A program made the position numbers and the translations under genes. The notes under the pieces were generated by a model. It had not been told where the DNA came from. It worked only from the letters and a program-made list of their open reading frames with translations, and did no database searches. Of a stretch of 64,000 bases of DNA, positions 14,862 to 55,126 are shown piece after piece. The stretch is from Bimuria novae-zelandiae CBS 107.79 (Eukaryota; Ascomycota; Dothideomycetes; Pleosporales; Didymosphaeriaceae). How positions within the stretch are numbered: position 1 is the first letter of the stretch; each line of letters begins with the position of its first letter. The stretch is taken from positions 547,893 through 611,892 of the forward strand of contig ML976663.1 in NCBI GenBank assembly GCA_010015655.1, written 5' to 3'.

Positions 14862-16488
14862 TAACGTCCCTCACTATAGGTAGAAAAACCGGCAAAAGAC
14901 CGCCTTACCACTTCTTGGCGTAAAAATTCCCCATCTAGCACTCTTTCCAATACACTACCACCTTTGTGGCTGTGCGCCCAAAATGGACCGAAATACCACC
15001 ATTTATGCCCGAATACCATGATTTGAGTCATCACGTGATAGGTTCCCAGCTAGCGGCCCGTAGATAATTAGCGATATTATATAGGAGTTATTTAAGTGCA
15101 TAGTTTATTAAGTCTATATCTATATTAATAGTTTTATAATTAATCTATTTAAGCTTTCTTTCTTAATTTTATTAATAGCGCAGGAGGCGGCTCCCTCTTT
15201 ATAATACTATTCTATTAACTTTAACTTTTTATACGTCTCTTGCTTTGCTCCAGTAAGCTAGTCGTAACATAGAAAGTAATTTTAGAGATAGGGTTAAATA
15301 CGTTAAATATAAAATTATTAGTTATAATAGTAAAAGTTATTACTTAATTTTAAAAAGTAGCGCTTCCTTATAGTAGCTTAATAGTATCTTGCGATAGACG
15401 ACCGTCGTTCGATCGTGCGGCCACTAACGTGTTTCACCACTCAGTGAGCCACACCACTTAGTGAGCCACCCCACCAAAATCGCGACGCGTCTTCTTATAA
15501 CTCTCGCAATGCCGCCCGCCTAACAAGCCTAGTAGGCTTAAAAAGAAGGTAGACTTGCTCTATTAAAGCACGCGATTTAAAATAAACAGATTTTAAGCTA
15601 CTAATATACTAGTAAACTCTATTAAGTTAACTAATTAACCCTCTACTAACGCGTTCTAGGTACTCTACCTTAGGCTACTACTAACGCTTAGAAATAAAAG
15701 CTACACCCTATAGAGGAGCGCGCTTTAGTAGATTAGATCCTAGACCTTAACTAACGCGGATTTCTACCCTATATTATTAATATATAATAAATAGCAAACT
15801 ATCTACTCGCCGCGCGCGGCTAAGAGCCCACTCCCTAGCTAGTTAGCAAGAACTAGATATCGCGCTTTATTAAAGCTTAGCTAGAGCTCTAGATAAAATA
15901 GAATAAGAAATTCTACACTTAGCGCGCGAAACCTAAGGACCTAGTTATAATTTACGCGTAGTTTAAGCTCGTAAATAAGACACGTTAGTTGTATAGTATT
16001 TCTAACTTAGATATCTATAACTTTAATAAGATTAGCTTTATAATAGGGATCGCTGCGACCTTAAAAGTTATTATAAGCTCTAAGATAGTTAGCCACGCGG
16101 TTACTATATAGCTAGGTAATTATAAGTAGGTAATAGCGATTAAGTGTATTAACCTGTCTAGCTAGTTAATCCCACCGTTTATAATCCTGTAAGGAAAGCT
16201 CTACTAAGCGAGCTAGTATTAAGGCCTCCTACCTAGCTAGGTTATCGCTGTTAGCGACAACGGCTAGACGACTAATAAGCTTGGCCTTAAGTAGGTAAAG
16301 CACTTCTACCGACATACAAAGGCTCGTACAGTAGGGGCATACTGGCTACTCATCCTCGACGGCCATGGCAGCCACGCAACGCCTAAGTTTGACCAGTTCT
16401 ATAGAGAGAGTAAAATTATCACGCTTTATATGCCGCCATATACGTTACACCTCTTATAGCCACTTAATATAGGCTGCTTCTCGCCTCT

Positions 16489-16745
16489 TGTCCGATTACA
16501 TGGCCCTTTGCACAAGCAAAGGTAGCTGGCGCAACCCTACACAAAGAGACCTTGCCAGCAGTCTGGTTCATCCGCACAATTCCGGGCGGAACAAAGGGCA
16601 ACTCTCCTTAATCAACGGAAATAGATTAGCGTATTAGTGGAAGACATAAGGATATAAGAGCCTTATATTCTTACAGGAATACAGATAATAGACATAACAA
16701 TTTATACCTTAATTTATCTTATTAGATTACCTCTCCAATTTAACA
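16489..16745 (+). repeat. Copia 5' LTR
   Basis: This LTR of 257 bp begins TGTCCGATTACATGG and ends TTTAACA. It differs from the partner at 21611-21869 by a 2 bp gap and a handful of C/T and G/A changes. The duplication CCTCT lies immediately outside. Confidence 0.92.
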
Positions 16746-19700
16746 ATTAAGAGTCTCACTACCTTAACTAATACTACCTTATCAAGCTAATCGCAATGGC
16801 CCTATCAACCCTTAGAGATCCTATAGTAATCCTAACTAACTATACAAATTACACACTATAGCTAAGACAGCTTAAAACAAGATGCTAATTCCTTAAGGTC
16901 TGGAACATTATTGACCCAGCGCTGATAGATGAACCAAAGCAGAAACCCGCCATGCCGATACCGCCATTAATAGGTAACTACTAGCTAAACGCTGTCTACA
17001 CGAATGCGAACCTAAATAACGCACTAATATTATCATCTTATCTATCGCTGGCAGGCGCGAAAGTATATAAAGACGATAGCGACTACTATAAAGGACAGCT
17101 CGAGATCTATAAGGTCATGGATCGAGCCTATTAAGAAGAAAAGGTAGACCTTAATAAGGTGGTTATCTTTCTCTAGTCAACAATCTCTGTGCATCTCCAG
17201 AACAACTACTGCATTCCTAGAGAAACAATTAAGTAATAGATAAATAACCTTATAATTATAATTAGGGTTGACTATTAAGATAAATATAGATAATTAAGAA
17301 CAAGGTATTAAGAAGCGCTTAAGCTAATAAGAATAGCTAGATTATAGGCTATATAGCTCTCTAAGTACAATTACGCAGCTATAGAAGCAGAGACTAATTA
17401 GGTTCTAGAACTTTAAAAGCTAGACTTAGTAAAAGAAGACTTTATAAAGGCAGTTGTCTATGTCGCACCTATGTAGGTAACGACCTTCCAGCAATATAGA
17501 AGCAAGGATATAGCTGTCTTATAAAAGCACACAATAAAACTCTTCTAAGACTATATAATCCTACAGCACCCGACTAAGGGCAAATAAAAGGGCGCTTTTA
17601 CTACTACAGGGTTATCTCTCGCTAAAGGTGGTGAACCCACCTAGGCCACAGACAGGGACGCCTCTCTTGTGGATAAAGCAGCATTATCTAAAAGTTAGGG
17701 AAGACCTTAGAATTATAAATAATAAAATAATAATTAATATACTAGAACTAAGTGGTCGCCTTAGAGCCTTAAGCTAACAATAGTTAGTAGTAATTACTAC
17801 CCTGCTTATAAACTACGCTATAGTCTTTAAGACTGTTTCTATGCCTTTCTAGACAAGCAGCCAGACTAGTTCACACTAAACCCTCTTATAGTAAAGCTAG
17901 TTAAGCTTAGGCTAGAACATGATACCGACTTCTAAGAGAAGTTAAAAAGAACAAAAAAGACTAAATTACAGGCACTTAAAATTAAATAATTATACACTCC
18001 TACTCTACTTTAAATTACTAAGGCTAATAATAAATGACTAGATAGACGCAAGATTACTAAAATCCTAGCGAGCTTTAACGCCGCATCCTTCTACACCGAC
18101 CTAAACACGTACCCATTGCAACGCTCAGCCATACTTAATTTAGGCACAACCTGCCATATCTTTAACGACATTAATTGCTTTATCTTATACCGTCCACCGG
18201 CGCCAGGAGACTTTATATGGGCAGGGAATACACAAATATGGATTAAAGGATACGGAAGCGTCTATCTTAATATATAGAGTATAAACGGCAATTAATTAAT
18301 ATAGCTAGATAATATAGCCTATTGCCCTGATCTGCTCTACAACCTTATATTGTTCTAATTACTCTAGAGGCAAGGCCTTTAGTAGGATACAAGAGCAGAC
18401 CTAATAACTCTAAAGAGAAGAGATAATACTATGCTAGCAGAACTCTAAGAGCTACATAGATAGTAGGTCTTAGAACATAAGACAAGGTTAGTAGGTAGTA
18501 TTCTTACTAATACTGCGCACGCTACTTACAAGACTAATACACGCACTAAACGAAGACTGCAGAAGGCAGATACGTGGACCTGGCACTAATAATTAGGCTA
18601 TCTAGGCCCTTAGGCCCTCGAACACCTTGTGCAGTAATCTAAGGGGGTGAGGATTAAAGGTCTCCTTATAGTTAAGTGTAATACCTGCGGCAAAGTAAAA
18701 CTGAAACGGCAAATACGCTAGCAAGCTAGAGATCTAATAGAAGGTCCTGGCGAGCGAGTCGCAATCGATTTTCACGACTATAAAATAGATAGCTTAACAA
18801 GAGAGAAGAGCTAAATACTAATTACTAACTAATTCTCTAGCTTTACATAAGACTTCTACTTTAAGGATAACTGCCTAGCACGGTTAATTATTAAATTACT
18901 TAGCACCTTTATGCAGTTTATAGAAGTATAATATAATATTATAGTAAAAGTAATTAAATCTAATAACAAGATCTTCTCTATTAAGGTAAACGTTAAGAAG
19001 TGGTGCTTAGCGCAAGGTATTAAGATTAAGCCTTTAGCACCTAATACTTAAGCATAAAATAGAGGAGCTAAACGCTTAAGGGGTGTAATTAAGGAGAAAG
19101 CGCGCGCGATATAACTTAACTCTAACCTACCTTAGTAGATGTGGCCTGAGATCACCTAAGCTATAGTCTACTTATATAATTAAACGCCAAACTACGCTAA
19201 TTAATAGCGATCTCCATATAAAGTGTTCTTTACGATAGTAGCTTTTCAGAACGGCATTATTACCTAACTAAAGAAGCCTAATCAAGCTTACCTAAAAGCA
19301 TATAGCTATAAAGCTTTTGCGATGACCAACGATACAAAACGCGGCAAGAGCAGGCTTTAGAGGCTTAACCCTAAGGCATAGATTAGCTACCTTGTTAGCT
19401 ACAAATTAACAAATATCTAGAGAATATAGATTCCCTCTCTAGCAAAGACAATTAGTACTCGCGACGTGATATTCGACGAGGATACTATATTCTTAGGCAA
19501 AACTAAAGACCTAATAGAAAACCTTATATATAGTATATTAGAAGAAATAGCGGCCTAGGTGCGATTAGTAGAGTTACCTCCCTTACCTTAATAAGAGCAT
19601 GCTACTGAGTCCTTCTTTAAGGATAAGATAATTAGTAAAGCGCTAGAGGAAGAGGTTAAAGGAGCTCCTAAGTATAGGTAAGGCAGGAAAGTTAGATACG

Positions 19701-21610
19701 AATATTTAATACCTCCCTTAACGCCGCTACTAGTAACACTCCTTGCACAATTAATAGCAAGAGGCGATTAAGCTATACTATCCTAAAAAGTGCAAATAGG
19801 GTAGTTGCAAACAAGCCTATGGGCCGTAGCCTTTATAGCAGGCACTAAAGCTAGTAGCAGCGGTAAATACAAAGGCAAGGCTCTTAATAAGGTGTAGCTT
19901 TAATAAATAATCACATTAGGTATAAAGCCACATCGAAGCGTGCTTCTAGAGCCACCTATATGCTAAAGCAAGCTCGAAGATCACCCTCTCTATAATATGT
20001 AGAAGGAAGCAGAACGTTCCTATCTATAGAGCCACAAGGAAATAAAGTCCTAGAGTAAGGTTGCAACCGCTCTAGTGAAAGTGGCAGGCTATTAAATCCT
20101 TAACTATATGTAGGTATATACCTACAAGTTTAATAAGTATTATTAATTACAGAAGTGTAAAGTAAGGCTAGTAGTGCGAGGTAATTAATAGTGGCACCTT
20201 ACCTTGCAAGAAACCTACGCCGTAACACTTACAGGATAATTATTCTATATGCTTATAGTAATTATAGCTCGTTTTAACCTAGAACTTATTTAACACGACG
20301 TTACTAACGCGTTTGTCCACGCGAAGCTGGATAGAGAAATCTACATAAGAATGCCTTGCGGCTACTCGCGAGCAGGCATAGTCCTTAAACTATATAAAGC
20401 ACTATACGGACTGCGTATATCTCTACTACTCTAGTAAAGAGAGTTTACGTTAACACTCCGTGATATTAGCTTTAAAGCAGTACCCTACAAGCCATACTAC
20501 CTTATTAAGAACGGCATCATTATCTTCTTTTATGTAGATAATATTATTATTACGTATAATAAGTTATAAAAGCAAGCTGCTAAAGCTGCTCTCGTAATAA
20601 TAAGTACTAAATTCACACTTACGGGTAGTAAAGACCTGCAGTAGTTTCTAGGAATTAAAATTATTAGGGACCGCTCGAGCAGAAAGATCTGGCTTTTATA
20701 AGCTTTATATATTAATAAAATATCGCGCCTTATTAATCACCATAAGATTCGTTATAATACCCTAATAGGTCTAATTAAATTGCTCCTAAGGACAGGACTA
20801 GCCAGCAAGAGTGAGATTAATAGATACTAGCGTAAAGTTGGATTAATTCTTTATGCTATAGTTATATCTTAACTAGATATCGCCTTTGCAAGCTCCCGAT
20901 TATTACAATTCCTATCTAACTTAAGCAAAGAGCACTAAGCGGCTGCTAACTAAGTTTTCCTCTACCTTACTAACACTAAATTACTAGGTCTTCAGCTTAG
21001 GGGTGCAGATACTTTGGAAGTGGCAAGTAACGTATCCTTTACTAATAACACACTCGACCGCAAGAGCTCGCAAGGATACATTATTAAGCTATTTAGTAGC
21101 CTAATCGCCTAGAAAGCAAACAAGCAAGATACAGTCACTATATTAATAACTAAAGCCGAATTACTAGCACTATCGCAAGTGGCTAAAGAGGCTTTATTCA
21201 CATCGCGATTACTAAAGGAACTAAAGATCAACCTTAGCGATTCCCTTATCACAATTAATTATAATAATTAGCAAATAATCTAACTTATTACTAAAGAAAT
21301 TGCTAAGTTGCAGACCAAGCTCCGTTATATAAATATCTATAATTATTAGCTAAGACAAGAGGTCGCACTAGGGATAATTAAGGTAGACTATTAACGCTTA
21401 GAGGACATGGTCGCCGATAGACTTATAAAGGCCTTGCTAGTGAACAAATGGAGCAAGTTTCTGCATAAACTGGGACTTAAAGATATATTAGATAAGATTA
21501 CTAATTAAGAGGTTGCCCTGCAGGATCTCCAGCAGAGGATAGAGGCCTTTAAGTTAGAATAATAGATAACTACGAAGGTCCAGCTTGAGGATAAGCCCAA
21601 GCTAAGGGGG

Positions 21611-21869
21611 TGTATCCAATTACATAGCCCTTTACACAAGCAAAGGTAGCTAGCGCAACCCTACACAAAGAGACCTTACCAGCAGTCTAGTTCATCCGCA
21701 CAATTCCGGGCGGAATAAAGGGCAACTCTCCTTAATCAACGGAAATAGATTAGCGTATTAGTGGAAGACATAAGGATATAAGAGCCTTATATTCTTACAG
21801 GAATACAGACAACAGACATAACAATTTATACCTTAATTTATCTTATCAGATTACCTCTCTAATCTAACA
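21611..21869 (+). repeat. Copia 3' LTR
   Basis: This LTR of 259 bp begins TGTATCCAATTACATAG directly after a GGGGG purine run and ends CTAACA. It is followed by CCTCT, matching the duplication on the left of the element. Confidence 0.92.
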
Positions 21870-22019
21870 CCTCTTAAGATCGCGTATAGCTATTAGGTGT
21901 CCGAGCTTGCGCGATAACGCGTCTTTTATATTAATAAGCAGGACTTCTTACAGATCTACCTAAGTATTAGAGGGACAGTCCTCTTAGAGCAGAATATCTA
22001 GGCTAGCTTCTAGGCGTTA

Positions 22020-24118
22020 CCGTGTCCGTGCGCGTAATGCCCGGATTCGCGTAATGCCCGCGCAGCACCAAACACCCTAACTTCAGCACGCGATAACTCC
22101 ACCAATATGGATCCGTATCAGGATGCGATTGATGAAATCGAATCGCGAGAGCCAGGAGAAGATTTTTCATATACAGAAGTGGCTACTAGGCGTGGACTTG
22201 AGCGATCTACGTTGGGCCGAAGGCATCGGGGAGTAACGCGCCCTCGACAGGTCAAGAACATCAACCAGCAGAAACTCACCCCACAGCAAGAGGAGGAGCT
22301 TGTTTAATATATCAAAAGACTCACAGAGAGACATATGCCTCCTACTAGAGAGATAATACAGAACTTCGCCTCTACGATAGCAAAGGAGCCAGTCAGCGAA
22401 AGCTAGGTTACGCGCTTCATCAACCGACACAGCATTCATCTTATCTCACAATAGGTAGTCAGCATGGACAGCAATCGCCACAAAGCTAATTTAGTAGATA
22501 AATATCGCCTCTTTTTCAACCTTCTGCACAGCAAGATAGATTAATATCATATAGATCCTCGTTATATCTACAATATGGATGAGAAAGGCTGCCTAATCGG
22601 TATCGTTGGTAGATTAAAGAGGATATTCAGCAGACGAATGTGGGAGAAGAAGGAAGTTAGGGCATCACTCTAAGATGGCAATCGCGCATGGATCACGCTC
22701 CTGGCATGTATCTGCGCTGATGGATCAGCTCTACCGCCAAGCCTCATCTATAAGGCTGTCAACAAGGGCATCCAATCAAGCTGGGTAGAGGATATTAAGG
22801 CAGGATATCATAAAGTCTTTATCACCTCATCACCCTCTAGCTAGACGAACAATGATATCGGGCTTACTTAGCTTAAGCAAGTGTTTAATCGCTGTATAAA
22901 AGAGAAGACTCGACGATTATATTAACTTTTAATTATAGACAGCTACGGATCTTATGTTACTATAGACTTTATTAACTACTGTAATTAGAATAAGATCCTA
23001 CTTGCTATTCTGCCTCCTTATTTAACTTATACGCTTTAGCCACTTAACGTTGCGATGTTTAAGCCTCTATTAACAGCCTACTTAGCAGAGCTATCAAGAT
23101 ACCTTTATAGAAGCCAGGGCCTAGCTTCTATTACTAAAGACGACTTCTTCCCCCTATTCTAGAATGCGTGAAAGGCCTCCTTTAAGGAATTAACTATCCT
23201 CAGCTCTTTTAGAGCCACAGGCATATCGCCACCTAATCCTAATCTTATCCTTAATAGGTTCACCTAGGATTAAGAATTAGGCGATAACTCCTTATTAGGG
23301 CTTAGCGATCATGATTAGAGAAAGATAGATAGGCTTATACGATTAGCAGTGAAGGATTAGGGTAGTTAAGATATAAAGAAGATTTGTTAATCGCTCCACC
23401 ACCTATCTGTCTAAAATAAGCTACTTAAACATGAGATGGATGGGATTAAGCAGGCACTATCTACTAAGGAGAAGCGCAGAAAGAAGGGCAAGACTCTAGA
23501 TCTTTAACAGCGCTAGGAGTATTATAGTGGGGCTATCTTATAGTTACTAAGGAAGGTGAGGGAGGCACGTGTTTATTAATCTATTAAGGAGCAAGAGGAT
23601 AAGTAGTAGTAGCTTTAAAAAGTAGAAATAGCAGAGCTAAAGAAGGCAGCTAAGCTATATAAGGAGAAAATGCAGCAGGAAAAGCGTGATACGCGAGAGG
23701 CAGCTAAGAAGGCGAAGGAGAAGGAGAGAGCCGAAAAGGCAGCTCAGTGCGCTGCCCAAAAGTCTGCCCGCGATGCAGAAAAAGCTCTATAACTATCCCA
23801 AAAGGGTAAGAGAAAGGCCTCTCAGCCATCTCTATAGAGCAGAAAGCGTCAAAAACGTGTTGTTGGTGCTGTAGATATTAGGGAGGCCTCAGAGGGCGCA
23901 TCTGCTGCCCCAACCAAATCTACACGCAGCGGTCGCGACATTAAGCTTCTAGATAGATTTAAATAGTGCAAATGAATCGCAGCTATCAACTTACTACTCT
24001 ACAAGAAAATCTCGTGATAATATTAATCGTGGGTGGCTCTATAGCCTTATTTTTAATAGAGCGTTTATGGTGTTGCGCGGGCATTACGCGAATCCGGGCA
24101 TTACGCGCACGGACACGG
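22020..24118 (+). mobile_element. Pogo-type DNA transposon B
   Basis: TIRs of about 50 bp start CCGTGTCCGTGCGCGTAATG at 22020 and in reverse at 24118, with TA on both sides (22018-22019 and 24119-24120). It sits inside Fot1-like element A. The transposase starts at 22107 with MDPYQDAIDEIESREPGEDF and a psq/CENP-B-like helix-turn-helix, and stops at a TAA that replaces a sense codon. It then continues with EELV, the second DNA-binding region, and a DDE_1 core (YNMDEKGCLIGIVGR, then RRMWEKKEVRASL, then ACICADGSALPPSLIYK). A Lys/Ala-rich C-terminal tail lies around 23640-23800. Only a modest number of codons are lost, so it is younger than its host element. It is not functional as read. Confidence 0.9.
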
Positions 24119-24805
24119 TAGGGCTAGTCCTAGCTTATTAAGAACGCGTCCTATTATCGCTAACGGTAGTTAAGACGCCTTCTCCGCTAGGGACGGCGGC
24201 TAACGCTGAGGTTACATAGATAATAGAGACACCGTATACTATTACTTAGCTAGAGTAGCAGGCTTAACTTATTTAGAGTTGTCTTAATTACCTATCCTAA
24301 AGCCCTACTAGCCAGGCTATCCGCTAGCTTGTCAAAGGTTGTTAGCTTGCGATGAATTCAGCAACAATTCTTATAGAGGAGAATAAGAAGCTTTAATAGG
24401 CAAGTCAGCGCTAACAGCGCAAGGGGCAACAGCGCCAATAGTATATAGCCTATAGAGGAGCTCTGCGGGTAGAGGAAGGTCAATTACTTGCTGCAGAGGC
24501 CGAAAGGGTGCTCCAGCAGGTAGAGCAGGCGGGGCAGCCAAGTAGGCCTTAAGCACCACCAACCTGTAACAGGTGCCACGAACAAGGTTACAAAAGAACT
24601 TAGTGTACTATTAGATAACGCGCATTAAATAGATCTATTTTCTATATATTTTATCGCGTGGTTGTAGAGCTATTGCAAGAAGACGCGTTGCGATTTTGGT
24701 GGGGTGGCTCACTAAGTGGTGTGGCTCACTGAGTGGTGAAACACGTTAGGCCTAGAGCTGACTAAGATTGTAAGGTGGGCTGTTCGGCAACCCTCGTCTA
24801 CACTA

Positions 24806-26585: not shown

Positions 26586-26604
26586 TAGTAGCGCGTGGGA
26601 GACG

Positions 26605-28877: not shown

Positions 28878-28879
28878 TA

Positions 28880-31036: not shown

Positions 31037-31324
31037 TAGTTGCTAATTCTATTCTTATTTACTACTTATTGTACAGCTCCTATCCAAGCTACAACCTGCG
31101 ACTAATAGCGTCTATTAGTAGCTTTAGTTTTGCTAAGGTGCGTATTTATTATCTAAATTTAGTACTAGTAAAAATCCTAATTTCTTAACTCTAGTAATTA
31201 CGTAGCTAAGTCCTATTAAGGAACAGCATAATTCTAGTTTTAGAAATTATAAAATATCTAAGATAAGGCGCTTTAATTAGCTAAAATAGGCTATAAAGTA
31301 AATATAGCCTAATAAGGACCTCTA

Positions 31325-40300: not shown

Positions 40301-40567
40301 TAGGTTATAACGGATAAATAGTTCTATCTAGGTTAGGAACGTTCCTAGGTGACCCTTTCCTAAATAGGGTTCGGGCTTTAGGACCTTTGGTTAATGTTTC
40401 GCATTTTCCCATTAGCTCATCTTTTCGCTTATCTAGTTAATAATTTCCTGTAACTAGGCTATCTAAGCCGCTTGTTTAATAACTATCTCTCCTAGGGTCT
40501 TTTCCTTAGGTGCCGGAGCTACGGTGGTCGAACTAGGTCCTGCCATTATACTATAAGGTAGTTAAAG

Positions 40568-41040
40568 TATTATAAGGCTCTTACACCTTATTCTAATCTA
40601 AGTTAGGGCGATAAGGTATCGTAGTGCTTCACGGATTATTTAGTAGTATAAGTTAATACGACACTTAGCGCGGCTAGATAATCTAATCTTATAACAAATA
40701 AGATAACTATTAGTCTATATAGGAGAACGTACTCGCACAGAAGATATATAAGTTAACTATAAAGAGAGAAACAATATAGGAGAAATATCACACTATATAC
40801 CAGTCTACTTCTTCCTTGTAGTCCCGCCAAGACGTCTTTCTCTAAGGTAGTCCGTGGGACTTCCTATAGTCCCGTACTTTATGCGGGACTTCTCGCTTAT
40901 GCGGGACTTTATCACGTGACTACTAACCTAAGCTGCCCCGCGCCCCGTTAGGTCCCGTTAACTCTACTACTTCGTTAATAATTACTCTCTTGGCGTAATT
41001 GTCTAGCTTCTTTATCCTTATAGGGTTCGTGGTCGTAACA
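40568..41040 (-). repeat. Gypsy A LTR (right)
   Basis: This 473 bp LTR begins TATTATAAGGCTCTTACACC (the TG start changed to TA) and ends GGTCGTAACA, then CTAGG. On the minus strand it is the upstream LTR, directly before the Gag start near 40550. Confidence 0.92.
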
Positions 41041-43451: not shown

Positions 43452-45231
43452 GCGCATATAGTTCCTGCGCACATAGGGTTCCTGCGCACCGCGCTAGAAC
43501 ACCCCACCTGCACAAAACACGCGATTTCTTAGTAACGCTGCTTACAATTGCCATTAACTATATATAGATTTAAGCGCTGTAGCTGCTATAGCTATAGTAG
43601 CTATTTCTAAGGTGCTTAGTATAGTAGATCTTTGTTACTTAGCTACTAAAGCTTTAGCTGCGCGCATAGCCTCCCTAATACTCTCTACCTTTGCAAAGTA
43701 TTAATTTAGGTCTACTTAAACGCGCTTACGCTGACGCTAAAAGGTAGATATCTCTAGCTGCTGCTCAAGTCGTCTTTTCTCTGCTTCTAGGCCTGCAGCT
43801 CTAGCATTTGCAGCTGCTAGAGCCTTACCTGCTTTCTGTAGGAGTAGCCGGGTGGTACGACCTAGATTCTCGACGCTCTGGACGCTGCGCTGCGCTATAT
43901 AGAGATCGTGAGGGCCCTGGGGAGTAGAGAGGAAGCTCTGGATCTGCTGCTGAGGCTGCTGCTCACGTGTAGGCGTAGTAGGCCTCTGAGAGACCTGCGA
44001 CGAGCTGAGCACGTAATTAATATTAAATAGGCAGATACTAGATGCCTGCCAGCCAGCTCGAATTACACGCTCTGTAAAGTCTTCCTCCCTAGCTTAATAA
44101 TAGCAGGTGATAAAGCGCTCCTTCTTAACAGGTACAGCGTCGTCAAGTGATACAAGCTCTTAGATCTAACGTCTGTAGCTAGACTTAATTACAGAGAAAG
44201 GAGCAAGATTAAGAGGCTATAGGACGTGTGAGGTGTGCGCAGGTAGATAGAGGAGCTGTATACGATGTAGCTTGCAGAGCCATAGGAAGTCTATATTAAT
44301 ATGGCTGCCGTGACCGTCGAGTATCAGGAGCCTGTGCTGGCCATCAGATATAGCCGTCTCAGGTATAAATATACGCTGTAGCCACTCAACATCTATTGCT
44401 TTTGACGTCTATCCGTTCTCTGAGGTTGTATAGATCCAGTCAGGTACGTAAGACAAGGAGAACCATGTTATCTATAGGCTCTAGCCCTTGAAGATGACTA
44501 CGCAGCGTAGTTTCCGCCCTGTCGCTAACACACACTTAATTATAGAGACCCACTCGCGATTCTCTGGAGACCGAATATAAGCCTTCTTTTTATAACTGCT
44601 AGAGAGTACTCTAGTGTTAGTACATACCCCTAGAGCAACGCCAGTCTCATCCATATTGTATGTATTCTCCGCCTGTATGTTAAGCCGCCGTCGAGTCTGC
44701 TCATAGAGCTCTAGGAACGCACGTATCTGCTCTGGTATCGCTGCATTAGCTCTCTGAGCCTCTAGCTTTCTGCCGACTACAGAGGCAACGCGTGGCTGGC
44801 GCCGGAGGAAGTGTAAGAGCCAAAGCTTACTAACAGGCTAGTTGTCGCTATTCATACGCAGAATCTAATTTACTATTTCTCGAGCGCGAGCATGCGAGGG
44901 AGGGCAGGCGCGTGCGTCTTCTTTAAGGATCTATTCTACTAGAAAATCCTCCTGTAGAGAAGTTAGCCACTATTAATGCTAATAGCTAAGCGCGCTACTA
45001 GTTATACTATTAAGATAATTATATAGCGTTAATTTAGGCAACCTATAGGTCTTCGTAGTAGCGCGCTAACTAGAATAGACGTCTATATTAAGATTGCTAA
45101 TAGCTAATTGTATAGCTGCTTTACGGGCGTCCATGTTAATAAGCGTTGTGGAGAGAAATCGCGTGTTTTCTATAGGTGGGGGGTTCTGGCGCGGTGCGCA
45201 GGAACCCTATATGCGCAGGAACTATATGCGC
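43452..45231 (-). mobile_element. Pogo-type DNA transposon E
   Basis: TIRs of about 80 bp start GCGCATATAGTTCCTGCGCA at 43452 and in reverse at 45231, with TA outside (43450-43451 and 45232-45233). It is inserted in gypsy B. The minus-strand transposase runs from about 45135 to 43737 with few stops: MDARKAAIQLAISNLN, then the DDE_1 core YNMDETGVALGVCTNTRVL, then DVEWLQRIF, then HRLLILDGHGSHINIDFLW, then LYLPAHTSHVL. A coiled-coil-like C-terminus ends EAEKRRLEQQLEISTF. TAG/TAA codons interrupt it at former Gln and Trp positions. It is one of the less degraded elements in the island. Confidence 0.9.
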
Positions 45232-45726
45232 TAGCTTAAGGCCTCTACCTCCTAGATCTAACTCTTAAGTTAGGCTAGCTTTAAGACTTCTTTAATCTTA
45301 TACTATTTATATTATTATTAATATAGTGTATAGGTCTCTCTAATTATATTAGATTTATATACTCCTTAATTCCTATATTATAGGCAATTTAAAGTAAAAT
45401 ATTTTTCTTAAGCTAATACGTCGTGCCTTAAGTAGTTATTAAAGGAAGCTACCTCTTCTTATAGGCTTAGGTGCGCTAAGTACTATAGGTTATATTAGTC
45501 TTATTCTATTAATAAGTAATTCTTGTCTTTTTTAGGCTGCTTGCTCTTTATTATTATATTAGTATCGCGGGGGTCTAGGCCCTAAAGGAACTAGCCTATT
45601 TTAAACTTTTATTATTTAGATATCTTATAAGTAATATTAAAATATTAGTACTAACTATTCTATTTATAGTGCTTAGCTTAATAAACTAAAAAGTATTTAT
45701 AATAATTATTAGATATGTTGCACTAG

Positions 45727-46161
45727 TGTTAGGATCCGTTGAGACCCAACATGACGCGAGGCGGGGCATGGCCACTTATCCGAGCGACCAGCCAAGGCTC
45801 CTGACTCAGCCACAGATCACGTGACCATGTCACGCGTCCCAGAAGTATCGGGCGTCCCAGAAGTATCTTGGCATATGGGACTTTGGGATTCTTGGGACAC
45901 CTGGGATTCGTGGGACGAGTCATGTATATAGGGACACGAGGATAGTCTTCTATCATCGTGTTCAACCTGTTTATCAATCTATCGTTTGGATCTGAATAAG
46001 CAACCTTGTTGATTTGATTGTGCTATACCCACCTTCGATACTAACGCCCTAGTGACAAGCGCAAGCTATCACTACGACCCTCTCCCGTCCTACTACAGTA
46101 TCCCTGCCCGAGAACCAACCTTAGCCCCTTAGGGACCAGCTACCCCTTTGGGATCTTAACA
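45727..46161. repeat. Solo LTR, family R, little mutated
   Basis: It is 435 bp, starting TGTTAGGATCCGTTGAGACC and ending GGGATCTTAACA, with ACTAG on both sides (45722-45726 and 46162-46166). A TATA-like TGTATATAGGG motif lies near 45924. It is GC-rich and keeps many CA and TG dinucleotides, unlike the surrounding gypsy B, so it arrived late or escaped RIP. No internal element sequence is present. Confidence 0.9.
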
Positions 46162-47574
46162 ACTAGCTCTTCTTTAGCCTATAGTACTTTAAGCCTCCTA
46201 GAAAATAAGAGGCCTTAACTCTAGCCTTAGAGTGCTATTAGCACTCTTTTCGCGTGCATTGCCACTACTTGGCGTATTTATGGCGTTCTAGTATCGTAAC
46301 CTAACGTAGGTATTGCCTTAGGGGCCCTTATAGCTTCTCGGCGAGCTAATAGACATCCTAAGCATGTAGTCCTTGGACGACTACCTTTGCCTTACACTAA
46401 GACAAGTGATACAGTGTACTGCTGCATATTTAGTAGGTGTTATCTACTAGTTACTAAAAGATTTAATATTCTTAGAGGGTCTTTCTTTTCTCCTTTTTTA
46501 CTAGTTTTGGGATCTCTTGCGTAAGATCCACCTCGTTAGCTTTTACTAGCGTAAGGGTGGCTATAGATACTTATAGGAGGTTAGTTATATTAATTTTAGT
46601 CTTCTAACCTTTATAGTTCTTAGCGAAGTAGTCTTGCTTATTATATTAAAAGTAGGCTTTATCCTTAAACCTTTATTCTTACTCTGTTTATAAGATACTA
46701 TTCCTGCCCTAGTAGCCTTTCTTTAGCTTATATAGCTACCTTCCTTTGCCGCTTCTTTTTTTGTACTAATAGGCTTTATTAGTTATAATAACGTCTCTGT
46801 CTCGATCCCTTCCTAAGGGTCGGGTACTAGTTTCTTTTTTAGAGAGTAGTTAGGTGCCGTGCTACCTTTCTAGTTTCTACTTATATAGGTAGTTATTTAC
46901 TTTAATAGTATCTTTTATAAGTTCTTCTAGGTTATTTGCTTTTCTTTAGTAGACTAGTTTATCCTTAACTATCTTTTTTAGTCTATTATAGTAAGTAATT
47001 ATAAGTAAGACTTCCCCCTATTCGTCGAGTTCTGCCACGATCTATTTAAACTCTAGGGTATAAAATACTACTAATTTTTCTTAACGTAGGCGTTAAAGGC
47101 GTATTTTAGCCTAATATTCTTTATTAATTATACTAAATATCCTTTTTATAGTCTTATAAAAGTACTCCTAGTCCTTAAAAGCGTCTTTAGTAGCGTTTAC
47201 TATTCTTAAGGAAGTTATTAATTATTAGTCTTACCTATAGAATTACCTTATCTTACATATTTATATAAGTAATTAGAATTTTATTTTATTTTATATTAAA
47301 TCTTCCTAGGTTATAGCGGATAAACAGTTCTATCTATATTAGAAATATTTCTAAATAACCCTTTTTAGTATAGGGTTTAGGTTTTAAAATTTTTAATTAA
47401 TATTTTACCTTTTTTTTAGGCGTTTATCTTCTCGTCTATATAATTAATAATTTTATATAGCTAAGCTATTTAAGCTACTTATTTAGTAACTATTTTTTAT
47501 AGTATCTTTTCTTTAGGTGCTAGGGTAGTAGTTGTTGCACAAGGTCCTGCTATTATACTATAAAGTAGTTAAAG

Positions 47575-48003
47575 TACTATAAGGCTCTTACACCTTATTT
47601 TAATTTAAGTTAAGATAATAAAGTATCGTAGTACTTTATAAATTATTTAGTAGTATAAGTTAATGCGACACTTAGCGCGAGACTAAATAATTTAATCTTA
47701 TAATAAAATAAGATAACTATTAGTCTATATAGGAGAACGTACTCGTATAGAAGATATATAAGTTAACTATAAGGAGCGTAAGATAGGAAATTATCCTATA
47801 TATATATATACTTGCTTACTTAGTTACTTAGCACTACTAATTAACTAAGTAGTTACGTGCTTTGCTCTACTACTTAGTACTAGTAATTAACTAAGTAGTT
47901 ACGTAACCCTAAGGCTAGCTTCTTAGCGTACTTATTAATCTATTCCTTAACCGCCTGTCCTTATAAGTGCCCATCCCTCGTTATCCTGTTTTGGTTCGTA
48001 ACA
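47575..48003 (-). repeat. Gypsy B LTR (right)
   Basis: This LTR of 429 bp begins TACTATAAGGCTCTTACACC and ends TTCGTAACA, followed by CTCTA. It aligns with the left LTR along its whole length. The first bases show G-to-A change from the TG start of the left copy. Confidence 0.88.
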
Positions 48004-48559
48004 CTCTAAGTTAATTAAAAAGATTATAAACCTAATATGCTCTTTACTCTTATAAGTTTATTATACCTAACTAGTATTAATTTTAAACCTTATTTTGCTA
48101 CTTTTTTAATAATAGTAAATTTTTTACCCTTTAAGCCTTTATCTCTTACGTAATTTATTTTAATCTTTTCTTAACTAGACAATCTTGCGAGGGACTATTA
48201 AGGGGTAGTTTTATAACGCTATTAGATTTAAGATTATTTAGTAAAACTAGTACTAAAGAGCACTTATACTACTTACGGTACTTAGATATCTTATAGAAAC
48301 TAGTAATATAATCTTTAGGTTTAACCTTAAAAAAGTAGCATACGGTAATTACGTATTTAAAAAAAATATAATAATTTTAAAATACGAGATATAAACCTTT
48401 TTTAAGCCTTAAGCTATATAAGGTAAGTATTTTAATTTTTTAAATTTGCCTAGTATATAATTATAACGAAGTTTTCGCGTTCTAAGGAGTTATAATATAT
48501 TAGCTACTCTCCTTAAGCTCTTTCTATAAATAGGCTGTAGCATAGTTAGTATACTTTTA

Positions 48560-49860
48560 ATTTTTTTTATAGCTTATAACGCCTTTCGTAGGACTTTGAC
48601 ATTAGGAAAGTCCATAGATAATAAAGTAAATAAAGAATTGGTAGGTTACGGGCTTCCATCCATGCGCTCTTAATCGACTCGGAGATGTTAGAGTAGGTTT
48701 GTCCAAACCGTGGAAAATTAACTAGTAGTGTGTACGATGTTGCGTAATGCTCCCTATCAATCTGATCTAGGTAGCGACGTGCAGGAGCGGAGCGAGACTC
48801 GGCCTAGTTAAGACAAGCTTTAAATTTAGCTTTAGTGTTAACTAAGCACGCAGCCTAGAATACTTTTTTAACTTTTCTTTAAAACTTATTTTTTTTATTT
48901 TTGTAAGATGTTGTGTGTAGTAATAGTAGAAAGCTTTAAAAAGAACTTATAAGATAGCTAAAACTAGCTCTTTTACTTATTTACTAATAATAATAAAATA
49001 TTTAAAATTACTATATTCTTTCTCTATCTTATTTAGGCTGTCTAAGAAATATTCCCTAAATCTTTAAAAAAAAAGTTAAGCTATAATGCTTTAGACTTAC
49101 TTCTAATAAATCCTTATATTAACGGTAGAATCTCTTTATTAAAGTTAAGGGTCGTTACAACGAAAAGAACTGAGTTATTATTAAATTTTATATATATACT
49201 ATTAACATAGATAAAACGCTAAGAATGCTAAAATGCATATACGTAAGCTCGTGGTGCTACATAGCACTATTTAAAAGATTTATTATTATTCTTAGAGATC
49301 GCAGCGTAAGCCCTTAAGGCAGTATAGTCTTGATTATCGTCAGAATCTGTTTCTTCGTCAAGCCTATTATCTGTTATAGTCTCTAGAAATGGGAGGATAA
49401 GTTGAAAAGACTTCTTTGCGTCTAGAAAAGTACTCTTCTAAACCTCCTTCTTTGCGCACCACGCTTGCTTATAAGAGATTTAATTTAAGTTTTAAAGTCT
49501 CTCAGCATTCTAAATCTAACGTAGTCTCGTTTAAAAGTCACTCTTAACTATATCTGCGTGCTATTAAGCGATAAGCTTCACAAAGTACGATGCTTTCTAA
49601 TCCTAATAGAAACTAAGGTCGCAGGTATAAGGTTCTAATCTACAAAGCTCGAAGTAGTTAGCTTGTTTTATATAACTAATTTAAATAAAAAATTTATAAC
49701 CCGTATTCTCGCTAGAATATTATTTCGCGTGGAATCGTGTCGGGTCGCTGTAAGTTACTCGATAAGAAAGCCTCTGGGTGACTATAACGTTGAGAACTAG
49801 CTGTTTCGCAGCATCAATCGATGCGAATGTCTGTCTAATATAGAGATTATTAAGCTAAGA
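48560..49860 (-). pseudogene. MULE transposase relic
   Basis: Read from about 49860 downward on the minus strand, the family blocks appear in order, broken by many TAA/TAG codons. There is an N-terminal RQTFASIDAAKQLVL, a CxxxPxTC-like piece (CRLEPYTCDLSFY), the helical ISYKQAWCAKKEV and FQLILPFLETITDN, and a core block resembling PF10551 (FIYVNSIYIKFNNNSVLF, then FNKEILPLIQGFI). Last comes a well-preserved piece at about 48590-48830 with TYSNISESIKSAWMEARNLP and a YERR block. In intact MULEs the core block carries a catalytic Asp where this copy reads Asn (YVNSI), which fits G-to-A decay. The protein would have cut and rejoined the MULE TIRs. It is not functional. Confidence 0.75.
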
Positions 49861-51964
49861 GGTTACTATTAAAGGTCCTTATAATTGCTGCTTACTACTT
49901 AGGGTTAGTACCGCGTGTTCCAACAACAGAACGCGTCTATGTTAAGATTGCGACGGACGCGTTTTGATCCATCCAGCGCTAATAGTAGATAAGTCAGGCA
50001 ATTTACGGAATAGTGTCATTTCGGGCAGAAATGGTGGTAGTTCGGTCCTTTTCCGCCGCACGGCCACATTGGTGGTAGTATATTGGAAACAGTGGTAGAT
50101 GGGGAATTATTACACCAAGTAGTGGTAAGGCGGTCTTTTCCCGGTAGAAAAACACTCTTCGTCGAAAATTAAGCGAGATACCCATCTCCAATCAAGTCAA
50201 TACCTGTTTATAAGTCTTAATAATGTTTGCGCGCCCATCGTATGCAGCTGTTCAGCCTTGCTGCAGCACCCCCACAAGCCAGGCGCTTGCGACTTAACTG
50301 CCTATACGATGCCGCTCTCTTCTCTAGTAGCTCTCTATAAGCACTTCCTTTATCTATTAATTTTATTTAATTATAAATCTACCTAGTATTATAGCTAGTA
50401 TTATTATAGTTTTTTAGCTCTTAGCTAAGACCCTTAAATATCTTAATAACATTAAAGATACTTTAGAAGATTATATAAAATACATAATTAAGGTCTTAAA
50501 TATATATAGTTTTTTTTTATTTTATTTTAAAGAAGGAAATACTAGCGTATTATAGTATACTATTATTTAAACTTTTAAAATTAAAAATAAACTATTTAAC
50601 TAGTTTAATTAAGCGCTAAAAGTACTATAGACCATAATAATAATAAAAATTATTTATAGTAAGTAGATAAAGCGCTAGTATAGAAGTTTAAATAAAATTA
50701 CTAGTATATTAGTCTAAATTAAAAGTTGAAGGCGCTTATAGAGATTATATTATACATAGACTATTTATAAGCCTTTATAGTAATAATATAAAGTTATATT
50801 ACTTATCTTTAAGGATAAATTATTTTAAGCTATTAAAGATAATACTAACGTCTTTTGAATATACGTGTCCGCAGTATATTCTTAAATAAATAAGATTTAG
50901 TAAAATTATATTAATATAAAGCATAGTAAGATAGTAAGATAGATCTTCTCTACTAACTACCCTGCTTAGTAATCGGACCTTATAGGTCGTAGACAGAAGG
51001 GAACGGGCTAGTGGTTTCTTAACGCACCCAAGTTTACAAAGTGGCTTAATAAAACGAAGGGAACTCTCTTCTGCCTAGGCATTTCTAGCGCTAGTAATAT
51101 AATGGTAGCAGCGATCGCGATTAACCACCTTCTAAATTCTATATAGAGTAGCTTGGTGGGAGTTGCGTATGTGTATTATAACTATAAAGTATAAGAAGAG
51201 CAGGATGCCTTTAGTATACTAGTAGCTATTATTAAGTAGCTAGTATAAGGTTAACTATTAATAGTAAAACTTATAGCACGACTATATAAGTAGTATGCTA
51301 ATTAAGGTATAAACCTATTTTTTAAAAAGATTTTTAGCTCTTTTAAGAAGTAGTTATAAAATTACTCTACTATTTATATTATAATTAATACTTTAAATAA
51401 GTATTAAGATAGTAATAGCACTTATAGTTAACTTTTAGTTAAATTTAAAAACTTATAAGTAAGATAATATATTTGTATTATAACAACTACGTAGTTTATA
51501 TTAAAGATTAAAGCCAAGTTTTAAATAATAATAAAGCTAGAAATACAAGCTAGTAATAAGGACGTAAGGTAATATATAGCTAGCTAGACACACTAACTGC
51601 CTAGGTATATTTAGCGTGACCCTATGCTATAGGCCATAGTATAAGATAAGCTTATAGAGGTAATAGATAGCATGTATATAATCTATTTACACTTAGGAAA
51701 TAGCGTTAGCTTACTAGTTTCTAGGTTTCTTCTTACTTGCCTACGCACGGACTCGTTTCTAAATAAGTAAATAATAAAAAAAGTTAAGTTAATATTAGAC
51801 TAACTCTTACAAGGCTTAACTACGCTTAATAATATATATAATAAGGCTATTTAATATATAAATAGCTAACTAGACAAAGATAAAGAGCGGGCTAAGAAAG
51901 TACTATCGTGGATTACGTACGTAAGGAGGCCGCTTACTATAGTAAAGTTATGCTATACTCTAGT

Positions 51965-52350
51965 TGTAACAGGAACAATCGCTCGTCGACACGAGAACCC
52001 TTGGCCAGTCAAGACAGGATTCGAGATCATCCGAAAACCGACACTCATCCGTATCGGACCTATTTCGGATCTATCAGACCGATAGGGAACTACGGATCCA
52101 ATTCGGACCTATTTTGGATCTATCAGACCAACGGTTAACCTATGGCAGATATATGCTAGCTAGCTATTTAGGAAAAAGTATATTCAAAAGAGCTTAGGGC
52201 CTTTATAGTTTAGTACCTTTTCTATATCCTTTTGTACCAGGCCTATAGACACTTAATTTATTTAAGGCTACTTTCTTATACACGCGCTCCTATATACCTC
52301 TGCTAAGAAATACGCTAATATTAACCCTTTAAGTGACCTGCGCCGATACA
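51965..52350. repeat. Solo LTR, family S, copy 2
   Basis: It is 386 bp, starting TGTAACAGGAACAATCGCTC and ending CGCCGATACA, with CTAGT on both sides (51960-51964 and 52351-52355). It interrupts the NLR-like gene of element X. Removing it and one CTAGT rejoins the coding sense across the site. Confidence 0.9.
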
Positions 52351-52979
52351 CTAGTAGTAGAGCTAAATAAAGCGGAGCTTAATTTAAAAAAATATATTTA
52401 ACGTTAAGGACTTGCTATCTGTATACGCTAGTCTTATTATTAATAATTAAAAAAGTGTTATTATTTATCTTATACACTATACTATATAAGAGTACTTGAA
52501 GTATATAAAAAAAAATTAGTATTTCAGTATTTTACTATATATTACCTTAGCATGCCTTACCTACCTATTATTTAACTTATTTAAAATAGGTAGCTACTCC
52601 TTTAATAAGAAGTTTAAAAAAAAGATTAAAAGAAAGTAAGTTCTTAAATTATGCTACTAAGTATTAGAGAGAGTATATTATAAAGATAGAAAGCGATACG
52701 TGCACGCTAGTCTATTTATTCCTTTTTAATAGTTACTTAGTTTTAAGCGCTACGTAGGTGCTCTTAGCTTAGACATATAGGTATAGTAGTTATAGCTAGA
52801 TATATTTTAAGAATAGCACAGGAGCACATCTTGTAGCGTAATTTAGATTTTTTCTTATTTTAAAGGCTATACTCTTATCTACAGGATAAGAAAGGAATTC
52901 TAAATTAATAAAAAAGGATAGCTAAGGTTAGACTTTACTTTACTTTATAGTAAAGAATAAATATTATCTAATAGCAGAA

Positions 52980-53595
52980 CTACTAATTAATAAGGGCGCC
53001 GAGGTTAACGGGCAAGGTGGATAGTACGGTAACGCACTCTAGGCGGCTTTATTTAGAGGCTACGAGGCAATTGTGAAGCTGCTACTCGAGAAAGGCGCCG
53101 AGGTCAACGGGCAGGGTGGATGATACAGCAACACACTCCAGGCGGCTTTATTTAGAGGCTACGAGGCGATTGTAAAGCTGCTACTTAAGAAAGGCGCCGA
53201 GGTCAACGCGCAGGGTGGAGACCACAGCAACGCACTCTAGGTGGCTTTATTAGGAGGTCACGAGGCGATTGTAAAGCTACTGCTTGAGAAAGGCGCCAAG
53301 GTCAACACGCAGGTCGACTATACGACAACGCACTCTATGCGGCTTTATCTAGAGGCCACGAGGCGATTGTAAAGCTGCTACTCGAGGAAGGCGCCGAGGT
53401 CAACGCGCAGGGTCGACTGTACGACAACGCACTCTATGCGGCTTCATCTAGAGGCCACGAGGCGATTGTGAAGCTGCTGCTCGACAAGGGCGCCAAGGCC
53501 AACGCGCAGGGTAGAAACTACGGTAACGCACGCTAGTTAGCTTTAGAAGGAGGCTATAAGCAAGTGTTTAAAATGTTATTTAATATAGGTACTTA
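52980..53595 (+). repeat. Six near-identical 99 bp ankyrin repeats
   Basis: A unit of 99 bp (33 residues, consensus about GAEVNAQGG, then NALxAAL, then HEAIVKLLLEK) occurs six times in tandem, preceded by one more diverged ankyrin unit from about 52915. The units are far more alike than ankyrin repeats usually are, and are rich in GC compared with the rest of the gene. One base is missing in the fourth unit near 53310, which shifts the frame. A few TAG/TGA codons replace Trp or Gln. The similarity suggests recent tandem duplication or gene conversion, as seen in the repeat domains of other fungal NLR proteins. Confidence 0.9.
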
Positions 53596-53601
53596 AGAAG
53601 G

Positions 53602-54070
53602 TTAAGAAGATAATTTTGTAATAAAATTTAATTAGCTACCTTCTTATTAATGCTATATAACTAGTCCTATATAAAGTAATAAGTTTAGTATACTTAAGTA
53701 ATTATAACTACTTTTTATATAAGAGTTTTGCTTAAGCACATGCTAAGAGACTTTATAAACTACTTTTAATAAATAAACTTAGAGTATATACTTATATATA
53801 CTAAATATTATTATAATTTTTATATATTTTCTTCTCTAGGACAAGTATTATTTAACCCCTTTAAAAAGTTAAAAGATATTAGTAGTAATAGTTAAATAAG
53901 AGTTAAAAGCTTAAGTAAGGTTAGATACTATAAATTCTATAATTAATAGAATACTTAAAGCTATTATAATTTTTATTTTATAGATTAGCTCTAGGAGAAA
54001 GAATAAACAAAGAAAGTATTAAAGTCTAAAAGAAGTCTATATAGGCTTGTTGTATGGAATAATTGTTTTT
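53602..54070. other. AT-rich 3' tail of element X
   Basis: This AT-rich sequence between the ankyrin repeats and the right TIR of X shows no coding sense on either strand. Confidence 0.6.
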
Positions 54071-54124
54071 AGAAGCTCGTTTCGTTTCGGCGAAGGGTGT
54101 TTTTCGACCAACAGTGATAGACGT

Positions 54125-54846: not shown

Positions 54847-55126
54847 CAGCTCTTGAGCACGATAAGTTATGGAAGGCTTGGAAGATAACCAAGGAAAAAG
54901 AATGTACTACGTTTAATACTGAGGTTGGCTGCGGAGCAACGTAATTCACGCATCTCGACAGTAAAGATGAGCACGAAGGCGAAGGGTGTTCCAGATGTGG
55001 TGTTAATGTAGACATATCCAGAACTGCCAGACATTTACCATGGAAAGTTCTTTTTCAAGCGTTCTCCCGCGGCTTCCCGAAGCTTGCGAAGCTCCAAAGT
55101 TGATGTACCATGTGTTTGGGCTTTCC
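54847..55126. other. Unique flank between OMT-2 and the hAT element
   Basis: The composition is ordinary and no domain was recognised. It is upstream of OMT-2 on the minus strand and probably held its promoter. Only short frames are present. Confidence 0.5.

Follow-up and report, generated by a model that had tools for sequence, protein, structure and literature searches.

The sequence analysed here (the window) is a stretch of 64,000 nucleotides from contig ML976663.1 of the ascomycete soil fungus Bimuria novae-zelandiae CBS 107.79, in which an O-methyltransferase gene is interrupted by a mobile element. The C-terminal part of this split gene (position 14416 to 14861, minus strand) matches the Methyltransf_2 domain (PF00891) at profile positions 64-174 of 210 (E-value = 2 × 10-22). 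The adjoining part lies at 54127 to 54240 (minus strand), according to a three-frame minus-strand reading of each flank separately; its frame is open to the edge of the element and ends with ...YPGRTERFARV, and the opposite flank starts with MSLFSMGPSYSP. On the basis of family motifs, we take the two flanks to be neighbouring stretches of one methyltransferase.

The element exhibits a TA dinucleotide at each side (14862-14863 and 54125-54126), as a previous reading based on the letters alone (hereafter the sequence-only reading) had proposed. Its right terminal inverted repeat (TIR) of 41 bp occupies 54084 to 54124 (minus strand). The left TIR is broken by a later insertion: its outer 26 bases are at 14864 to 14889 (plus strand), and its remainder was located at 50154 to 50190 (plus strand) by alignment to the unbroken end of a related element, C44. 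With the insertion read across, the two ends starting at 14864 and 54124 are alike at 33 of 41 positions, the very level of similarity first claimed for them, against a top 41-mer match of 26 (mean 23) in 40 block-shuffled windows. Without skipping the insertion the ends are alike at only 23 of 41 positions, because the left end is broken after 26 bases; 21 of these outermost 26 positions agree. This end type recurs in the genome, and the outer 28-mer of the right end, together with its TA, has identical copies at C8:25959, C48:389747 and C140:101396.

The interrupting sequence is a nested element containing further repeats and foreign to the NLR element (14890 to 50143), bounded by inverted arms at 14888-15013 and 50020-50145 (126 nt, 87%) and accompanied by a 10-bp duplication, GTAGAAAAAC (14880 to 14889 and 50144 to 50153), of which C44 has a single copy. 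Those arms, considered as candidate ends of the NLR element itself, were rejected since they belong to this later insertion. Genome-wide, 21 sequences match the end of the nested element, both window ones counted. Another later insertion is a 386-bp LTR-like repeat (TG...CA, 51965 to 52350), missing from C44 and flanked by a 5-bp duplication (CTAGT); at least about 37 further matches to it, at 89-94%, occur among the matches listed. After removal of the nested element, one copy of the duplication and the LTR-like repeat, the net element is about 3.6 kb long, in accordance with the initial estimate.

The remaining sequence holds a relic of an NLR gene, all of it on the plus strand: an N-terminal domain at 50331 to 50633 (tblastn with the C44 N-terminal ORF, E-value = 2 × 10-12), a RIP-mutated NACHT region at 50787 to 51964, delimited by its profile match, its stops and comparison with C44, and a C-terminal region at 52388 to 53590 with ankyrin repeats at 53043-53509. 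The NACHT-type (NPHP3_N) match covers 51000-51449. The NACHT part contains 34 in-frame stops. Over its first 1.7 kb, the NLR part shows 469 differences from C44, of which C>T or G>A changes make up 430. The window NLR is a pseudogene killed by RIP. The NACHT-ankyrin gene previously placed between the ends is thus there as to its domains, but not as a working gene.

Besides the window element, three elements (C44, C15 and C11, two of them with N runs) were read letter by letter, the rest being followed by coordinates. C44 is a near-twin of the window copy, with the same ends, TA at both edges and a length of 6974 bp. It carries an open 516-aa transposase ORF (DDE_1, E-value = 5 × 10-29; HTH_Tnp_Tc5, 4 × 10-5) and an NLR gene represented by an NPHP3_N-GPIID_WHD ORF and an ankyrin ORF. 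The NACHT part of this gene is separated from its ankyrin part by a small repeat (about 287 bp), and the public protein P0121 has no ankyrin domain; for these two reasons the C44 NLR is probably truncated. C15 is a related element of 8570 bp, again with TA at both edges, whose end repeats align over about 560 bp at 61%. It also contains both genes: a 613-aa transposase ORF (DDE_1, E-value = 5 × 10-32, with the HTH below its curated cut-off) and an NLR of the C44 type (NPHP3_N, GPIID_WHD, Ank).

No transposase had been visible in the window copy, and the comparison with C44 upholds this: a 2.64-kb stretch holding the C44 transposase is missing at about 50234 (junction at 50232 to 50236), where window 50146-50234 corresponds to L070:711-799 and the window from 50232 onward to L070 from 3443. 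We read the absence as a probable deletion, because both fully read two-gene members have a transposase and because C140 and C168 retain left-arm sequence past the window's junction point. The converse, that the C44 transposase inserted secondarily and brought ends of its own, was rejected: its borders yielded no pair of inverted repeats, the C15 transposase is in the same divergent arrangement, and the left arms of C140 and C168 point the same way. Both RIP mutation and deletion have altered the window copy, which belongs to a transposon family.

The family is not uniform in its cargo. C11, an element of 4624 bp with TA at both edges and no transposase, contains a PigL_N/SesA-NPHP3_N-WD40 gene lacking GPIID_WHD; its N-terminal domain matches PigL_N (PF17111, E-value = 8 × 10-10) and SesA (9 × 10-6), and its reading frame is open, with an odd P-loop. 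The NLR of C18 is of the same PigL_N/SesA, WD40 type, with a transposase gene close by. The N-terminus of the C44 NLR gives no Pfam match itself; it exhibits 30% identity to the C11 domain, and PigL_N is found in 5 of 51 relatives. The cargo NLRs are therefore of at least two architectures. Other copies with such ends a few kb apart, TA-flanked and several with NACHT, which the sequence-only reading had envisaged, were thus sought and found. The place of the empty sites that it also envisaged is taken here by the TA flanks and the split O-methyltransferase gene. Its proposal of a cut-and-paste element with an NLR, mobile as a unit, is supported and can be extended to a recurrent cargo and to two full members with a transposase.

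A survey of this one genome links the ends to NACHT genes. The end pattern derived from the window, with up to 3 mismatches, gave 30 matches, and a wider pattern gave 72, with none for the reversed control of either; being modelled on NLR-carrying elements, these patterns are biased towards recovering their relatives. Of 78 end matches, 21 have a NACHT domain at most 10 kb inward, and none (0/78) has one outward over the same distance. When the four fully read elements, including the pattern models, are dropped, the counts are 14 of 70 (11 loci) and 0 of 70. For Ank_2, with all ends included, 16 of 78 have a match inward and 0 of 78 outward (all 139 listed matches used). Facing end pairs up to 20 kb apart enclose a NACHT domain in 7 of 10 cases, and in 6 of 7 cases when less than 10 kb apart; none was found inside the facing pair C125 (3.5 kb). 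The NACHT loci facing such an end number 16 of 88. For the transposases of this clade, 8 of 14 loci (C44 counted) have a NACHT domain no more than 10 kb away, against 3 of 65 for the other listed pogo-type transposases (Fisher p = 1.5 × 10-5). The cargo is not obligatory, since 57 of the 78 ends (on their inward side) and 6 of the 14 clade transposases are without a NACHT domain within 10 kb. These counts support a TIR family having NLR genes as a recurrent, non-obligatory cargo.

The same data bear on two other explanations. A single pogo-like element might have captured one NACHT-ankyrin gene, the other NLRs being near such ends by chance because the regions are NLR-rich. One NLR lineage is indeed common to the ANK-type elements C8, C44 and C15; however, C11 and C18 carry NLRs of a different type, and the restriction of NACHT domains to the inner side of the ends is not expected from a compartment effect, so that this one-off capture is already disfavoured and appears improbable. 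Alternatively, an ordinary pogo family might prefer NLR genes as insertion target, its elements lying beside or around NLRs rather than carrying them. The many copies without an NLR would fit such a preference, as would TAACGT starts on what appear to be other pogo-type ends (window 15424; L076, L081). Yet the facing pairs of C11, C15 and C44 enclose an NLR a few kb apart with TA at both outer edges, and a target preference predicts NLRs outside the ends too, whereas 0 of 78 ends have one there within 10 kb; we consider it very unlikely. The window feature is in all probability a defunct copy with an internal deletion, belonging to a Tc1/mariner-pogo (Fot1-like) family in which NLRs are a recurrent cargo.

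In 13 aligned transposases (4 genome loci and 9 homologues), D193, D304 and D340, which we take to be the catalytic aspartates, are invariant, with 35 residues between the last two (DD35D). Pairwise dN/dS values are well below 1, at 0.15-0.25 and 0.13-0.14 for the NLR pieces and 0.07 and 0.13 for the transposase. NPHP3_N and GPIID_WHD are present in all 51 aligned NLR relatives, and Ank_2 in 44. Relatives occur in several Pleosporales and other fungi, among the best 120 of 1238 matches for the transposase and the best 120 of 1739 for the NLR. No match was obtained with the transposase in one scan of IMG/VR or with the C44 NACHT part in a sequence search of PDB; with a profile of the 51 NLR relatives, it is the ankyrin part that is covered in the 60 listed of 533 PDB matches.

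In a more far-reaching version of the recurrent-cargo reading, recombination would swap NLR modules between element backbones. The transposases of C44 and C18 are 70% identical, yet their NLRs are of the ANK and WD40 types, respectively, and C44 and C15 are less similar in their transposases (58% identity, pS 0.75) than in their NLRs (68-80%, pS 0.36-0.61). On the other hand, C15 has a long branch, so that rate differences could account for part of this, and a single clade of C44, C15 and P0001, the nearest C44 homologue, is not rejected by the AU test (p = 0.18). Leaving P0001 out of the test gives p = 0.0002, but since P0001 is sister to C44 this result carries no information. The underlying transposase tree comprises 9 of 12 loci (the RIP-mutated C48, C45 and C18b omitted) and 13 hand-picked homologues of the 120 listed. 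The tree does not prove swapping, which we regard as a real possibility falling somewhat short of an even chance.

The mechanism that we propose for the recurrent-cargo family is as follows. The two full members (7.0 and 8.6 kb), with TIRs starting ACGTC or ACCTC and TA at each outer edge, encode an HTH and DD35D transposase, and an NLR consisting of an N-terminal domain putatively related to HeLo-like, NACHT, a winged helix and ankyrin repeats. The transposase would excise the element at its repeats and reinsert it at a TA, the NLR travelling along as a unit; C11, with ends and a WD40-type NLR, would move in trans. Fresh copies would be exposed to RIP, the process that inactivated the window copy. 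We infer transposition itself, as well as the expression, function and benefit of the NLR. Tentatively, and on balance rather unlikely, a pleosporalean pogo-type lineage may have NLRs as a standing payload, swap modules of differing architecture between backbones and supply a sizeable share of the host's NLRs (at least 16 of the 88 NACHT loci here facing such an end), the NLR serving the spread of the element, for example by protecting the nucleus or hypha that houses it from competing mobile elements or by influencing which partners can fuse. If true, fungal immunity and allorecognition would be partly transposon-run.

Ordinary members of Fot1/pogo contain a transposase gene alone and are about 2 kb long. 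Like these Tc1/mariner elements, with their TIRs, TA flanks and Tc5/CENP-B-type HTH and DDE_1 transposase with an aspartate triad, the present family exhibits TA at both edges (window, C11, C44, C15), TIRs (window, C15), and a DDE_1 triad with an HTH in C44 (in C15, DDE_1 with the weaker HTH), the transposase being absent from the window copy. It differs in that many copies enclose an NLR and in the larger size of the two full ones (7.0 and 8.6 kb). Fungal NLRs of the NACHT-ANK and NACHT-WD40 classes (NWD/HNWD type) consist of an N-terminal domain, NACHT, a winged helix (ANK type) and repeats. The same domain order is observed here, with a NACHT-type NTPase and C-terminal repeats in C44 (the gene being split), C15 and C11, and as a pseudogene in the window; a point of difference is that the genes here are enclosed by transposon termini, with a transposase gene nearby in C44, C15 and C18.

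Starships are giant elements, reportedly treated by Gluck-Thaler in 2022. Their captain is a tyrosine recombinase of the DUF3435 type. In the accessible parts of the literature they are described as large elements with many genes that a tyrosine recombinase mobilises, and a sesA-NACHT-WD gene is among their reported cargo (PMC12134995). They thus resemble the present family as fungal mobile elements with NLR genes, and the window element might lie within a Starship or a different giant element carrying NLRs. Such an origin is barely credible given the inverted repeats, the TA flanks, the DDE_1 transposase and the small size (4.6, 7.0 and 8.6 kb, and about 3.6 kb net in the window, against tens to hundreds of kb); here the carrier is a small DDE element and the NLR its main cargo. 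hAT elements have a hAT transposase and 8-bp duplications, whereas only TA and a DDE_1 transposase are found here. ToxhAT (PMC6737239), a fungal hAT-type TIR transposon of 14 kb known for ToxA, similarly has an NLR-family (patatin-TPR) passenger, with no series of NACHT-ANK or NACHT-WD40 copies in the available portion of its description. Among the sources searched, some in excerpt (including PMC9594970, PMC3599309, PMC12258605, PMC12134995, PMC9815663 and PMC6737239; preprints and most subscription papers fell outside this scope), none reported NLR genes in a pogo/Fot1-type element. Within these sources, NLR cargo has its precedents in Starships and ToxhAT, and a pogo-type carrier is not among them. 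Fungal NLR repertoires differ greatly between strains and species. A small NLR-carrying DNA transposon, by which receptors could move and multiply in the genome, offers a concrete and testable mechanism for their turnover, through TA insertion polymorphism, duplication with later decay by RIP, and perhaps module exchange, and would add the Tc1/mariner superfamily to Starships and ToxhAT as carriers of host immune genes.

The terminal repeats of the window element, at 14864 and 54124, agree in an ungapped comparison at 21 of the 26 outermost bases and lose agreement beyond, because a younger element has inserted in the left repeat. Once this nested insertion is bridged, 33 of 41 positions agree, the same figure as in the sequence-only reading, against a best chance match of 26 for the 41-mer in 40 shuffled windows. 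The nested element (14890-50143) has inverted arms of 126 nt (87%) and a 10-bp duplication, the 10-base sequence GTAGAAAAAC being present at 14880-14889 and 50144-50153, and resembles a Mutator-type element. Its end has 21 matches in the genome, including the window's own two; some of these face each other in pairs 0.5-0.65 kb apart (contigs C111 and C5) and have the look of short, non-autonomous copies. Inside it, an inverted repeat of 73 nt (99%; 15424-15496 and 24677-24749), near a TAACGTG start and adjoined by a transposase-like stretch, is a candidate for a further pogo-type element. A 386-bp TG...CA repeat at 51965-52350, with CTAGT on both sides (5-bp duplication), is a probable solo LTR; it is missing in the related copy on contig C44 and occurs at about 37 other places among the matches listed (89-94%). 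TA stands outside each end of the window element and about 3.6 kb remains after subtraction of later insertions, both as previously read, and the NACHT-ankyrin gene proposed between the ends is located there by profile matches to NPHP3_N (NACHT-type, 51000-51449) and ankyrin repeats (53043-53509).

The left flank carries a Methyltransf_2 domain on the minus strand (14416-14862, profile positions 64-174). With the flanks read separately, the minus-strand frame of the right flank reaches the element with ...YPGRTERFARV, and the left piece starts with MSLFSMGPSYSPRWLV. Family motifs suggest that the two pieces are neighbouring stretches of one O-methyltransferase, whose gene the element would interrupt; the single right-hand ORF submitted to a Pfam search (54410-55054) had no match.

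Other copies with these ends exist, as the earlier reading had proposed to check. A pattern built from the two window ends was found at 30 places in the genome with at most 3 mismatches (16 forward, 14 reverse), and a wider pattern admitting the ends of the elements on contigs C11 and C15 at 72 places; the reversed control of each pattern gave 0 places. By eye, the sequences outside the matches to the window-end pattern are dissimilar to one another. The C44 element (C44:544590-551563, 6974 bp with both TA), having the same ends as the window element, contains an open 516-aa DDE_1/HTH_Tnp_Tc5 ORF and, on the opposite strand, an NPHP3_N-GPIID_WHD-ankyrin gene matching BU23DRAFT_537789 of Bimuria novae-zelandiae CBS 107.79 at 97%. 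This NLR gene is split: between its NACHT-WHD part and its ankyrin part lies a repeat of about 287 bp (5574-5860 of the C44 locus L070), which has inverted ends of 21 bp and is missing in the window and C15 copies. No ankyrin domain was found in the public protein (P0121). A stretch coded at the start of this repeat is matched at dozens of genome places. The C15 element (C15:215222-223791; 8570 bp, the two TA included) combines a transposase ORF of 613 aa with an NLR of the C44 type, the two genes being divergent as in C44; its end repeats can be aligned for about 560 bp, with 61% identity. Runs of N within the ankyrin repeats of both loci (L070 and L083) make repeat number and frame there unreadable. 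The C11 element (C11:283280-287903, 4624 bp with both TA) carries a PigL_N/SesA, NPHP3_N, WD40 gene, and comparison of its two end loci gave no transposase match. The open C11 NLR frame (2798-4486 of locus L069) reads GAAGTEKS at the P-loop position, where we would expect GxxGxGKS; this uninterrupted gene may be inactive despite its open frame. A transposase at C18:419343, preceded at 0.6 kb by an end-like match, adjoins an NLR gene related to that of C11; the pieces read are 64% and 63% identical, and the WD40 part is matched as well.

The window NLR is a dead gene, with 34 stops in its NACHT part. In the initial 1.7 kb of the NLR part, C>T and G>A changes account for 430 of the 469 differences from the C44 copy, and GC content is 28% against 52% in C44. 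Such an excess is characteristic of RIP, a process directed at duplicated DNA; differences of other kinds amount to about 2%. The left end is 92% identical to that of C44, whereas the right end (53606-54124 against L070:7143-7664) is only 60% identical, with 71 transversions in 508 aligned positions, a divergence much above what RIP explains. The window element may therefore be a mosaic. It also skips from position 799 to 3443 of the C44 locus, the junction having a few bases in common. Since no inverted repeats border the C44 transposase part, and left-arm sequence past the junction point is retained on contigs C140 and C168, we read the window copy as a deletion derivative.

NLR genes could be mere neighbours of these ends rather than cargo, and the side on which they lie bears on this. 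Among 78 ends (the 72 wider-pattern matches and 6 more from the window-end pattern), mapped against 88 loci merged from the 98 of 105 NPHP3_N rows above cut-off, 21 have a NACHT within 10 kb inward, and none has one within 10 kb outward. Without the four fully read elements, which include the pattern models, the counts are 14 of 70 inward (11 loci) and 0 of 70 outward. The corresponding count for ankyrin, on all 139 listed rows, is 16 of 78 against 0 of 78; elsewhere ankyrin matches were scored from 150 of 355 candidates. Facing ends at most 20 kb apart enclose NACHT in seven of ten cases (C11, C12, C15, C23, C32, C44, C48) and lack it in three (C34, C125 and a second C48 pair). This second C48 pair encloses an ankyrin match. 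Conversely, 16 of the 88 NACHT loci have a family end facing them within 10 kb. Transposase loci were scored from 83 of 2480 candidates. Of the 14 merged loci whose transposase has at least 52% identity to that of C44 (C44 included), 8 have a NACHT no more than 10 kb away, versus 3 of 65 for the other pogo-type transposases listed (30-35% identity; Fisher p 1.5e-5). As NACHT is absent within 10 kb inward of 57 of 78 ends, near 6 of 14 clade transposases and in the C125 pair, NLR cargo is frequent in this family and not obligatory, though some of it may have become unrecognizable through decay or nested insertions. The ends at C87:27475, C124:139222 and C48:428956 face ankyrin matches without an NPHP3_N match; their cargo may be NLR-like, with a nucleotide-binding domain of a different kind. 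A second clade of transposases may also carry NLRs: at C102:166865-177531, a family end is followed by a more distant pogo-type transposase (31%) and, 10.7 kb from that end, by a NACHT gene.

Pairwise dN/dS (custom Nei-Gojobori script) is 0.15, 0.24 and 0.25 for the NLR parts of C44 and C15 (219, 151 and 299 codons), 0.13-0.14 for the NLR pieces of C11 and C18, 0.13 for the transposases of C44 and C18, and 0.07 for those of C44 and C15, where synonymous sites are close to saturation. These values of 0.07-0.25 argue that both genes are kept, on average, by purifying selection. The C44 and C18 transposases are 70% identical, yet accompany different NLR types; those of C44 and C15 are 58% identical, with an NLR common to both at 68-80%. 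If the elements share an ancestor, NLR exchange or gain is needed at least once, and these identities suggest that the lineages of C15 and C44 exchanged NLRs directly. A single clade of C44, C15 and P0001, the nearest homologue of the C44 transposase, is not rejected by the tree (AU p 0.18); the same test without P0001 (p 0.0002) is uninformative because P0001 is the sister of C44.

Most likely, the transposase moves the NLR by way of the terminal repeats and TA insertion. Its HTH domain would bind the repeats, the D193/D304/D340 triad predicted from the alignment would cut, and insertion at TA would carry the NLR along; short copies without transposase would be moved in trans, and RIP would afterwards restrict the number of intact copies. 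The cargo NLR probably works as a cell-death receptor of the ordinary kind. In C11 its N-terminus is PigL_N (PF17111), to which that of the C44 NLR is related with weaker Pfam support; PMC9815663 terms PigL_N HeLo-like and groups it with pore-forming effector domains.

Our literature search gave no report of pogo/Fot1-type elements with NLR genes as cargo; where a survey of NLRs in Sordariales touches on transposons, in the two places found, it stays general. NLR genes appear as Starship cargo in PMC12134995, and PMC6737239 describes the passenger of the hAT element ToxhAT as an NLR-family protein. The present family thus belongs to a known transposon group and its cargo is known from other groups; NLR cargo is common to Starships, ToxhAT and these elements, and in this family it recurs, and on a small element.
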